A DNA stretch of 32,286 nt, from positions 1 to 32,286 of the forward strand of contig CACBCU010000011.1 in NCBI GenBank assembly GCA_902537895.1. The letters run 5' to 3'. The position numbers and the translations under genes are program-made. Shown here piece after piece: positions 1-25,114 of this stretch; the first letter of the stretch is position 1; each line of letters begins with the position of its first letter. The notes below the pieces were generated by a model, which worked only from the letters and a program-made list of their open reading frames with translations, was not told where the DNA came from and made no database searches. This DNA comes from an uncultured Pelagibacteraceae bacterium. GTDB lineage: Bacteria; Pseudomonadota; Alphaproteobacteria; Pelagibacterales; Pelagibacteraceae.

Positions 1-927
1 TCACCTGCCGAGGCTAAGGCAACAATTACTGAATTATTTACATCAGTTGGATCAGGTGCAAGTTTCGTTCCAATACAAGTTACTGAAGAAAAAACAACAA
101 GATCGATTATTGTCAGAGGTAAAGAAAAAGATTTAGATATTGTTGATAAGGTTATAAGAGAGATAGATAAAAGAACTCAACAAGTTTTGATAGAAGCTTT
201 TATTGTTGAGGCAACTTCATCTTTTGAACAAGCTTTAGGAAAAAAAATGGGTGCGGCTTATACTAGAAAAGGTGTAAGAGTTGGAGGTACTCAAGGCGGA
301 AGTTCTGTTGGTGCACCTTCAGGCTCTGGTTCAGAGCTTTCGGATACTACTAGTGCATTCTCAACTGGAGCTGGAACAGATAATCTTTTCAGCTTTGGTA
401 CAGCTGGTGCCACAAGTGGTATAGGTATATTAAGAAAAACAGGCTCAGCAGTATTAAAATTAGAGCTAGATGCACTAGAGTCCCAAGGTCTTGGTAAAAC
501 AGTTTCTAATCCAAAATTATTTACTTTAGACAATCAAACAGCTAGCATTAAACAAGGTGAACAAATACCAGTTTCTGGAGGAGATGGCGCAGATACATTT
601 GCTGACGCGGCTTTGAAACTCACCGTAACTCCTAACATTATTGGCGACGGTAATGTTATGTTAACAATTGTAGTAAATAACGACACTCCAAATAGATCAA
701 CACCTGGTACTCCTGGAATAAATACAATGGAAATTAATACAAAATTATTAGTGGCAGATGGTGATATCGTAGTAATAGGTGGAATTAAAAAAAATAATGT
801 AGCCTCTGCTAAGCGTGGGGTTCCTGGTGCAAGCAATGTGCCTGTTGTTGGAAACTTGTTTAAGGGGTCCTCTCAGTCTGATACTATGAATGAACTTTTG
901 GTATTTATAGCTCCGAGGATTTTGTAA
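1..927 (+). CDS. Type IV pilus / type II secretion secretin, C-terminal part (5' end outside window)
   Basis: The reading frame is open from base 1, so this is the C-terminal ~308 residues of a larger protein; a TTG at 187 is only an internal codon. The first ~60 residues look like a secretin N1-type ring domain ending in RGKEKDLDIVDKVIREIDKR, followed by VLIEAFIVEAT, the usual entry into the secretin beta-barrel domain. A Gly/Ser-rich stretch follows (the gate region in this family). The C-terminus carries the secretin signature IGGIKKNNVASAKRGVPGAS, then VPVVGNLFKG and ELLVFIAPRIL. Secretins form the outer-membrane pore through which pili or substrates pass. The stop overlaps the ATPase start (TAATG), so they are co-transcribed. 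PilQ, MshL and GspD cannot be told apart without the N-terminus; the neighbouring prepilins favour a pilus system. Confidence 0.9.
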   Translation, partial: SPAEAKATITELFTSVGSGASFVPIQVTEEKTTRSIIVRGKEKDLDIVDKVIREIDKRTQQVLIEAFIVEATSSFEQALGKKMGAAYTRKGVRVGGTQGGSSVGAPSGSGSELSDTTSAFSTGAGTDNLFSFGTAGATSGIGILRKTGSAVLKLELDALESQGLGKTVSNPKLFTLDNQTASIKQGEQIPVSGGDGADTFADAALKLTVTPNIIGDGNVMLTIVVNNDTPNRSTPGTPGINTMEINTKLLVADGDIVVIGGIKKNNVASAKRGVPGASNVPVVGNLFKGSSQSDTMNELLVFIAPRIL

Positions 928-20369: not shown

Positions 20370-22193
20370 GTGGAAAGAATTATTACAAAATCATTTGCTA
20401 GACTAATGGGTCGTGGAACCCATAGAGGTTTCATCACTTACGAAGAATTAAGCAAATCTCTAGGAAAGAGAAATTTGTCTGATGAAAATCTTGCTCAAGC
20501 ATTTATTCATATTCTTGATGAAAAAGTAACTCTGGTAGAAAAAAAATCAGATTTTAAAGTTCTAAGAAAAAAAGACAGTTCATCCAAAGAAGAGGGTAAA
20601 ACAATCGAGAAAAGCGATGATCCTATAAGAATGTATCTAAGAGAAATGGGCGGTGTTGAGTTATTATCAAGAGAAGGTGAAATAGCTATCGCTAAAAGAA
20701 TTGAAGCTGGAAAAGATGTAATGTTAATAGCGTTATCTCAAAGCCCTATAACAGCTCAACAATTTTTTGAATGGAATGAAAAACTTCAGAAAGATGAAAT
20801 TTTAGTTCGAGAGATTATTGATATTGATACAAATTATATGGAAGATGAATCAACAGGACCCAGTGCAAAGCAAAAAAATTCAGGAGAATTAGAAAAAGAA
20901 GAAAGCGCTGTCGAGGAAGAAGAAGATTTCAATCCCACACTCGCTGCAATGGAAAGTGAGATAAAACCTAAAGTATTAAAAACAGTTAATTTATTAACTA
21001 AAGAATATAATAAGCTTATCAAGTATCAAAAAGAAAAATTAGATTGTGTGTTAAATTCTAAGACTTTTTCGCCTGCAAAAGAAAAAGGCCATGATAAAAT
21101 TGTTAACGATATTCTAGAAAATATTAAATCTCTTCAATTGTCGCCATCTGTTTTAGAGGAGTTGGTTCAAAAACATTACGTAGAGAATAAGAAAATTGTT
21201 TCATTAGAAGGAAATTTACTCAGATTAGCTATAAATCAAAACATTTCTCGAAATGAATTTATAAAGTTTTATATAGGTAATGAAATTAACCCTAATTTAA
21301 AAAAGTTTTTAGATACAAATTCTTTATGGAAGCAATTTTTTTCAAAAAATAAAAGTGAATTTAAAAATATTAGAGATAGATTAGTTGAAATAAGTCATAA
21401 ATTAGGAATGTCAGTAACTGACTATAAAAAGTTAGTTAGCAGAGTACAAAAAGGAGAGAAAGAGTCTAGAATTGCCAAAAAAGAAATGGTTGAAGCAAAT
21501 TTGAGACTAGTTATCTCGATTGCCAAGAAATATACAAACAGAGGTTTGCAATTTTTGGATTTAATACAAGAGGGTAATATAGGATTGATGAAAGCAGTTG
21601 ATAAATTTGAATATAGAAGGGGTTATAAATTTTCTACTTATGCTACATGGTGGATAAGACAAGCAATAACGAGATCCATTGCCGATCAAGCAAGAACAAT
21701 TAGGATCCCAGTTCATATGATTGAGACTATAAATAAGATTGTGAGAACTCAAAGATTAATACTTAGTGAATTTGGAAGAGAAGCAACTCCAGAGGAATTA
21801 GCAAAAAAATTAAGAATGCCACTAGATAAAGTGAGAAAGGTTTTAAAGATTTCAAAAGAACCAGTATCTTTAGAAAAACCAGTTGGCGATGAAGAAGATA
21901 GTAGTCTAGGAGATTTTATAGAAGATACCAAAGCTCTTGCTCCTCTAGAACAAGCGATTAAATCTAACTTAGGAGAAGCTACAACAAAAATATTATCAAC
22001 TCTTACACCAAGAGAAGAAAGAGTTTTAAGAATGAGATTTGGAGTTGGAATGAATACAGATCACACTTTGGAGGAAGTTGGTCTACAATTTTCAGTAACA
22101 AGAGAGAGAATTAGGCAAATTGAAGCTAAAGCTTTGAGAAAATTAAAACATCCAAGTAGATCAAAACAGCTAAAAAGTTTCTTAGAAAGTTAA
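20370..22193 (+). CDS. rpoD: Primary RNA polymerase sigma factor (sigma70)
   Basis: 607 residues from a GTG start. A region 1.1-like N-terminus ([20 protein letters not shown]) is followed by region 1.2 (~86-118, [20 protein letters not shown]) and a long acidic non-conserved spacer. Region 2 (~375-440) has [36 protein letters not shown] and [10 protein letters not shown], the promoter -10 reader. Region 3 follows, and region 4.2 is [20 protein letters not shown] for -35 recognition. It follows dnaG with 66 bases between, as in the classic macromolecular-synthesis operon. It is the only sigma factor in the window, so it is a conceivable but unlikely target of the RsbW-like kinase. Confidence 0.97.
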
Positions 22194-22204
22194 GAATTAT
22201 TTTT

Positions 22205-22279
22205 GGGCCGTTAGCTCAATAGTAGAGTACTGCATTGACATTGCAGGGGTAGTTGGAGCGTAACCAACACGGCCCACCA
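22205..22279 (+). tRNA. tRNA-Val (GAC), with atypical D- and T-loops
   Basis: 75 nt including encoded CCA. All four stems pair perfectly: acceptor GGGCCGT/ACGGCCC, D stem GCTC/GAGT (one G-T), anticodon stem CTGCA/TGCAG around loop TTGACAT (anticodon GAC), and T stem GTTGG/CCAAC. The D loop is AATAGTA and the T loop AGCGTAA, so the usual G18, T54, T55 and A58 are replaced by A18, A54, G55 and T58, while G19 and C56 remain. Perfect stems and encoded CCA argue that it is a working gene. It lies 11 bases after rpoD. Confidence 0.85.
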
Positions 22280-22352: not shown

Positions 22353-22429
22353 GGGCCTGTAGCTCAGTTGGTTAGAGCAGTACACTCATAATGTATTGGT
22401 CCCAGGTTCGAGTCCTGGCGGGCCCACCA
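22353..22429 (+). tRNA. tRNA with CAT anticodon (elongator Met, or Ile2)
   Basis: 77 nt with encoded CCA. Acceptor GGGCCTG/CGGGCCC (one T-G), D arm GCTC/GAGC with canonical GTTGGTTA loop, anticodon stem GTACA/TGTAT around CTCATAA, variable loop, and a T arm with canonical TTCGAGT loop. It is paired at 1-72 (G-C), so not an initiator. Elongator Met and lysidine-modified Ile2 both read CAT at the gene level and cannot be separated safely by eye. Confidence 0.92.
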
Positions 22430-24728: not shown

Positions 24729-25082
24729 GCCAGATGAACGATTTATCGCTTTAAATTTTTTAAAGAGGAAAGTCCGGACTCTACAAGAATACAGTGCCAG
24801 GTAATTCCTGGCGGGGGCAACCCTAGGGATAGTGCCACAGAAAATAAACCGCCATAACATGGCAAGGGTGAAAAGGTGTGGTAAGAGCACACCGGTTCTA
24901 TTGGTAACAATGAACGCTGGAAAACCCCACTGGGAGCAAAACTAAGTAGAGATGACAATGTTAAAAAACTAAAAGCAATTCTTGGCTAGTCATCAGGGTT
25001 AGTTGCTTGAGCTCAAAAGTGATTTTGAGCCTAGATAAATGATAAATTTAAATGACAGAACCCGGCTTACAGTTCATCTGGC
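24729..25082 (+). ncRNA. rnpB: RNase P RNA (class A)
   Basis: The ends pair as helix P1: GCCAGATGAAC (24729-24739) with GTTCATCTGGC (25072-25082). Conserved regions appear in order: GAGGAAAGTCCGGACTC, then GGGGGCAACCCTAGGGATAG, GCCACAGAAA..ACCGCC, AAGGGTGAAAAGGTG with GGTAAGAGCACACCGG, and near the end ACAGAACCCGGCTTACAG. It is the catalytic RNA that matures tRNA 5' ends. The layout is bacterial type A with a small AT-rich variable region near 24960-25050. Confidence 0.97.
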
Positions 25083-25114
25083 TACATAATAATTTAATCA
25101 ACATAAATGTTCAC

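Follow-up and report, generated by a model that had tools for sequence, protein, structure and literature searches.

The tRNA-Val(GAC) gene described here is real and conserved, and it probably encodes a working elongator tRNA with a matched alternative elbow; its expression, folding, charging and geometry are inferred. It lies in the window, the whole stretch of DNA that was analysed (32,286 nt, contig CACBCU010000011.1 of GenBank assembly GCA_902537895.1, from an uncultured Pelagibacteraceae bacterium), together with the following features.

20370..22193, plus strand: rpoD, the upstream syntenic gene, used as locus marker and tree gene (NCBIfam RpoD, 773 bits)
22205..22279, plus strand: gene for tRNA-Val(GAC), CCA included, with the putative alternative elbow (ARAGORN, Rfam RF00005, 100% identity in 39/101 genomes)
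22218..22224, plus strand: D loop AATAGTA, i.e. A14 A15 U16 A18 G19 U20 A21, with A18 for the near-universal G18
22237..22239, plus strand: anticodon GAC (sequence, ARAGORN)
22251, plus strand: A48 facing A15, purine-purine versus the usual R15-Y48 Levitt pair (sequence, covariation)
22257..22263, plus strand: T loop AGCGTAA, i.e. A54 G55 C56 G57 U58 A59 A60 (sequence, couplings)
22353..22429, plus strand: tRNA-Met(CAT), downstream, with canonical loops, used as internal comparison (ARAGORN, Rfam)

The gene starts 11 bases behind rpoD and meets the cloverleaf criteria for an elongator tRNA-Val(GAC), with all 21 of 21 stem pairs intact (acceptor 7/7, D 4/4 including one G-U, anticodon 5/5 and T 5/5), the GAC anticodon, A73 and an encoded CCA. 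The D loop lacks position 17, and the canonical elbow set (G18 G19 / U54 U55 C56 A58) is not met, only G19 and C56 being kept. A sequence-only reading had described perfect stems, A18/G55 and A54/U58 swapped and G19/C56 kept, and all of this held; its list of departures was incomplete, as A15/A48 (for R15/Y48) and A60 (for Y60) also deviate. Scoring and isotype assignment, for which it had asked, gave Val(gac) by ARAGORN and 53.6 bits with RF00005, versus 72.7 for the adjoining tRNA-Met. Further along the window, at 24730-25085 and downstream of mlaC-, mlaA- and amidase-like genes, a class A RNase P RNA was found (290.5 bits).

The window's genome (1.0 Mb, 84% complete) yielded 28 tRNA matches, with one GAC and one UAC gene for valine. 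Judged by its size and gene content and by how large the group is, it is taken to be SAR11 (Pelagibacterales). In a complete relative (G012), 32 tRNAs were found and the swapped tRNA is the sole Val-GAC, which argues, by inference, for valine charging and ribosomal use; any tRNA straddling a junction between two of the 68 stretches of G012 would escape this count.

When 101 genomes, 61 of them members of the window's genus, were searched, 49 contained a match to the tRNA-Val(GAC), and the identical 75 bases were found in 39 (the window's own genome included), all belonging to the genus. Diverged copies change in pairs in the acceptor, anticodon and T stems, and both loops stay fixed. A pseudogene, or a sequencing or assembly error, in which the loops are damaged and the RNA unused, would account for the loss of near-universal bases and for the Rfam score falling below that of the neighbour. 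Against this stand the identity across so many genomes, the covarying stems with fixed loops, the status of the gene as the only Val-GAC in G012 and the occurrence of the same loops in unrelated tRNAs. The sequence-only reading had named canonical loops at the same locus in relatives as a refuting result, and such loops do occur, in a minority that includes at least five genomes of the genus. In these relatives both loops, D and T alike, are of the canonical type, which indicates concerted switching rather than read error. Damage or error is all but excluded, having been ruled out by the conservation and by the absence of mixed forms among the Val-GAC genes of the order set out below.

In a family sample of 397 genomes, 158 matched the Val-GAC pattern, and all but six of the rows listed had the swapped T loop. 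A wider Val-GAC pattern matched 257 of 297 genomes sampled across the order, and every listed row from the second family of the order has the canonical elbow. Among 80 chosen genomes of the window's family, 53 matched. Where the Val-GAC pattern found no match, 21 genomes were searched with a covariance model, and the six candidate places that were fetched proved to be tRNA-Gly.

From the order search, the 80-genome family search and the fetched loci, 53 distinct Val-GAC bodies were compiled, of which 21 are swapped, 32 canonical and none mixed. The check that had been proposed, whether 54/58 and 18/55 covary in the tRNA-Val next to rpoD, was thus answered in the affirmative, and the covariation supports the earlier claim of compensation at interacting positions rather than decay. 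All 21 swapped bodies have A18, A54, G55, R57, U58, A60 and A48, with a T loop of the form AGCRUNA. Positions 16 and 59 are U/A in 13 and A/U in the remaining eight, with no uncoupled combination. That reading is refined in that 18/55 and 54/58 are separate modules, and in that 16/59, 15/48 and position 60 join the change.

Both forms have rpoD upstream, as do the fetched canonical copies from within the genus (G037, G208, G363, G440 and G535), at a greater distance in G535. An rpoD tree of 50 rows (44 swapped and six canonical) gave six changes of state. Two canonical rows nest among swapped rows on starred branches (L176 with a swapped row, 95/91, and L173, 97/89). The tree is poorly resolved, with only 9 of 47 inner branches starred and the bootstrap not settled, and neither its root nor the direction of change is fixed. 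The number of switches is possible only as a rough figure and, as the sequences are related, the counts overstate the number of independent events.

It could be argued that the swapped gene is phage-borne and has spread by recombination at the locus rather than by mutation in place. The same elbow is indeed seen in tRNA-Val(GAC) genes of phages (L249, L251, L262 and L265), and the change is always complete. Against this origin, the 75-base gene had no BLAST match in 50,697 phage records, its last 30 bases had no exact (attP-like) copy in the viral contigs, and swapped and canonical copies share their acceptor and anticodon stems (L061 versus the majority form, and L176 versus L177). We consider phage transfer unlikely.

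One half of the change, A18-G55, was also found without the other. In 46 tRNA-Phe sequences, obtained from the 80 chosen genomes (47 pattern matches, one a non-tRNA that was left out), 31 have A18-G55 with U54 kept (UGCG) and 15 have G18-U55, again with no mixed form. In G012, A18-G55 is present in three of the 32 tRNAs, namely Val, Phe and Thr(GGT), and the tRNA-Phe carrying it is the only Phe tRNA found there. Canonical 54-58 accompanies A18-G55 in the tRNA-Phe of G000 (L015, L020) and in the tRNA-Thr(GGT) of G012 (L661:11481-11555), the T loops being TGCGAAT and TGCAAGT. In two genomes of the genus (G174 and G126), the tRNA-Phe has a different anticodon stem and canonical loops, and is perhaps an acquired gene.

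These findings bear on the possibility that the tRNA-Val serves a role apart from translation, its elbow having been altered to avoid the ribosome or EF-Tu. Altered D- and T-loop bases mark the non-proteinogenic staphylococcal tRNA-Gly used for cell-wall synthesis. The likeness to those loop changes favours such a role, as does the second valine tRNA (UAC) in the window's genome. An extra isoacceptor with the same anticodon, a criterion for a non-proteinogenic tRNA, was not found, as there is a single GAC gene in both G012 and the incomplete G000. Moreover, the tRNA-Phe with the A18-G55 half must translate, and canonical and swapped forms replace one another at one locus. A role outside translation is therefore very unlikely, and we retain the reading of a translating elongator tRNA.

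To examine how widely the elbow occurs, the full swapped-elbow pattern, with the middle base of the anticodon not A, was run over 84,980 species genomes. Of the 55 matches, 22 were tRNA-His(GTG) with 21/21 pairs, four belonged to a tRNA-Thr-like gene whose T stem is irregular, and the other 29 were no tRNAs. The tRNA-His(GTG) genes lie in genomes of Microgenomates (CPR) type, and their records were titled Daviesbacteria, Levybacteria/Levyibacteriota, Gottesmanbacteria, Amesbacteria, Blackburnbacteria or Microgenomates in 21 cases, and bacterium in one. The tRNA-Thr(TGT)-like genes with swapped elbow and irregular T stem were in L205, L234, L235 and L237 (titled Cyanobacteriota, Obscuribacter or bacterium). 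In the dense arrays of tRNA genes on two of these contigs (L205 and L237), A18 is combined with a TGC T loop in several further tRNAs.

The same pattern with any anticodon gave 19 matches in IMG/VR, of which 15 had 21/21 pairs and three had 18-19, making 18 plausible tRNAs; the isotypes of these phage tRNAs are Val, Lys, Asn, Met and Ile. In the named phage records that were inspected for the swapped elbow, the tRNAs looked at had canonical loops. The viral contig L249 contains, besides a swapped tRNA-Val(GAC) and many tRNAs, a permuted tmRNA (about 274-711, minus strand; RF04321, 85 bits).

Within the class, a sample of 337 genomes contained a real swapped-elbow tRNA in three, all of the window's genus, and seven more matches in six genomes were judged by eye not to be tRNAs. 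Because the pattern used for the class demanded GG at 45-46, tRNA-Phe escaped it, and the result is uninformative on tRNA-Phe in the class. In a phylum sample of 349 genomes, only the window's genome contained a real swapped-elbow tRNA, the nine other matches being non-tRNA by eye.

The coupling between elbow positions was examined in the CPR and viral loci, which were parsed into 475 distinct tRNA-like sequences; 229 of these combine a D loop of seven bases with R18 G19. In these 229, positions 18-55 are G-T in 172, A-G in 55 and G-C in two, and positions 54-58 are T-A (116), A-T (83), G-G (16), C-A (8), C-C (3) or A-G (3). The class sizes are biased by the design of the viral scans, which allowed only G57 and A60 and limited the choice of bases at 54 and 58; positions 55, 16 and 59 were left free. 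In control scans in which U54 and A58 were kept, A18-G55 was found in at least 77 distinct tRNAs, A18-U55 in seven and G18-G55 in one, and exceptions to the 18-55 coupling thus exist. Taken together, the controls and the class tables indicate that 18-55 and 54-58 are two modules, with 16-59 belonging to the second.

For 16-59, the 25 distinct loop combinations of the A18/AG.U class comprise A-T (15), C-C (5), T-T (3) and T-A (2), with a mutual information of 0.903 that was reached by none of 5000 shuffles. The coupling is weaker in the G18/AU.U class (29 combinations; 0.417, reached by 63 of 5000 shuffles), and in the canonical class (61 combinations) the value was 0.06, reached by 4599 of 5000. 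Nearly every sequence with a changed 54-58 has A at position 60, and nearly every canonical one has T or C there, though many of the sequences came from scans that required A60. In the CPR and viral tRNAs a purine at 48 accompanies a purine at 54 (58/89 versus 27/247 distinct combinations, Fisher 4.5e-22). The couplings repeat in independent sets, namely tRNA-Phe, the CPR tRNA-His and the phage tRNAs. In phage tRNA-Ile(GAT) genes (L304-L420), A54-U58 is often found with G18-U55 kept and 16-59 is mostly A-T or T-A; among those examined, A16 tends to be accompanied by G48 and U16 by C48. Phage tRNAs L256, L273, L299 and others have yet another, third form of elbow, in which A18-G55 is joined by the T loop GGCRGNA (G54 and G58).

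The covariation shows that the first module is the exchange of G18-U55 for A18-G55, and the second that of U54-A58 for A54-U58 (or G-G) with A60 and covarying 16/59. A different arrangement would replace the interdigitated elbow by a short Watson-Crick helix between refolded D and T loops, with the pairs 19-56, A18-U58 and 16-59. In its favour, U16-A59, A18-U58 and G19-C56 can all pair in the window's tRNA, and 16-59 covaries. Against it, no coupling is seen between 18 and 58, where A-U, G-U, A-G, G-G and A-C all occur in the table for the 229 tRNAs, in contrast to the tight coupling of 18 with 55 and of 54 with 58. The A18-U58 Watson-Crick pair was rejected on this ground, and the helix is very unlikely.

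Under the preferred reading, of an elbow with exchanged contacts, the covariation shows that A18 goes with G55, replacing G18 with U55, and A54 with U58, replacing U54 with A58, and that G19-C56 is retained. In the second form, D-loop position 16 goes with T-loop position 59, as U-A or A-U here and as C-C or U-U elsewhere, with A60 and usually a purine at 48. It is inferred that G55, C56 and R57 with the docking A18 form a composite GNRA-like arrangement as in the UGNRA T-loops of other RNAs, that 54-58 remains a trans pair with its edges exchanged, and that 16-59 is a trans Watson-Crick pair bracing the loop.

The loss of the substrates for m5U54 and pseudouridine-55 formation had been claimed for this tRNA, which overlooks that all ten genomes of the genus searched are without a TruB match or a TrmFO match above cut-off. 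TruB_N (PF01509; pseudouridine-55) had no match in any of the ten, nine of which are at least 99% complete, and all 14 controls were positive. For TrmFO (m5U54), only matches far below the cut-off were seen in the ten, in a frame of 624-640 residues that we take to be MnmG. A motif scan of G012 found TruA- and RluA-like frames and no TruB-like frame. TrmA was sought by motif only, without a positive control. The one SPOUT frame found is closer to TrmL than to TrmH, its match lying below cut-off. Some Mollicutes are known to have lost TruB (PMC4014445).

Without TruB and TrmFO, U54 and U55 would lose one reason for their conservation, and enzyme loss is likely to have permitted the elbow change, a causal role that is inferred. 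TruB was tested only in genomes with the swapped tRNA-Val, the canonical relatives and CPR bacteria being outside the sample, so cause and effect cannot be separated. The history may have been that the enzymes modifying U55 and U54 were lost, the bases were freed and the elbow then changed over repeatedly, each time as a unit.

We lean, without great confidence, towards a bolder reading, in which there is a second self-consistent elbow code (A18-G55; A-U, G-G or C-C at 54-58; A60; A-U, U-A, C-C or U-U at 16-59; purine 48). It would have separate origins in SAR11-type bacteria, CPR tRNA-His and many phages; the loss of the enzymes for pseudouridine-55 and m5U54 would have opened the way to it, and it would toggle as a unit with the canonical one. 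G18, U54 and U55 are treated as universal and underlie textbooks, tRNA finders and the biology of modification. Their natural and conserved replacement shows which contacts are truly required, namely 19-56 plus a matched 18-55 and a matched 54-58, and the swapped elbow provides a ready comparison for the roles of pseudouridine-55 and m5U54, for translocation and for EF-Tu recognition. The host group is apparently among the most abundant bacteria of the ocean, and the swap is repeated in CPR bacteria and phages.

No prior description of an A18-G55/A54-U58 elbow was found in the freely licensed PMC literature searched, and a paper on SAR11 tRNA signatures (PMC3937112) held no relevant passage on the swapped tRNA-Val. 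The nearest published case is eukaryotic tRNA-Ala, which combines A54-A58 and R15-A48 with R60 and may form a trans pair between 16 and 59 (Y16-Y59), the pairs being stated to be absent from bacterial and archaeal tRNAs (Westhof et al. 2020, PMC7566577). A purine at 54, 48 and 60 and the possible 16-59 trans pair are common to both. When tested for a tRNA-Ala-type elbow, the window's tRNA met R15-A48, purine 60 and purine 54, and failed A54-A58, as 58 is U. Eukaryotic tRNA-Ala keeps A58, and no 18-55 change is described for it in the relevant sections of PMC7566577, whereas the window's tRNA is bacterial and has A54-U58 and A18-G55.

In the UGNRA T-loops and lonepair triloops of riboswitches and rRNA, a UGNRA triloop that accepts an A from outside becomes a composite GNRA tetraloop, and the bulged T-loop bases may form long-range pairs (PMC2258182). 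A18-G55 is matched there by the G in the second loop position and the A from outside, the long-range pairs to the two bulged bases resemble 16-59, and both contacts fit this arrangement. Those T-loops are not from tRNAs. The tRNA-Phe (UGCGA with A18) fits UGNRA in sequence, and the window's tRNA-Val (AGCGU) does not, having G2, R4 and the docking A18 and lacking U1 and A5. In tRNA-Sec, the C16-C59 or U16-U59 contact corresponds to two of the four 16-59 combinations found here, though tRNA-Sec is otherwise described as keeping canonical D/T contacts (PMC7609411). The eukaryotic initiator tRNA likewise has A54 for U54, and differs in its A54-A58 pair and in being an initiator only (PMC7912444). 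Finally, suppressor tRNAs with altered 54-58 or with a D/T double helix are reported to have been engineered by the Steinberg laboratory, the elbow reportedly tolerating other contacts; those were laboratory selections, whereas the tRNA-Val described here is a natural conserved gene.
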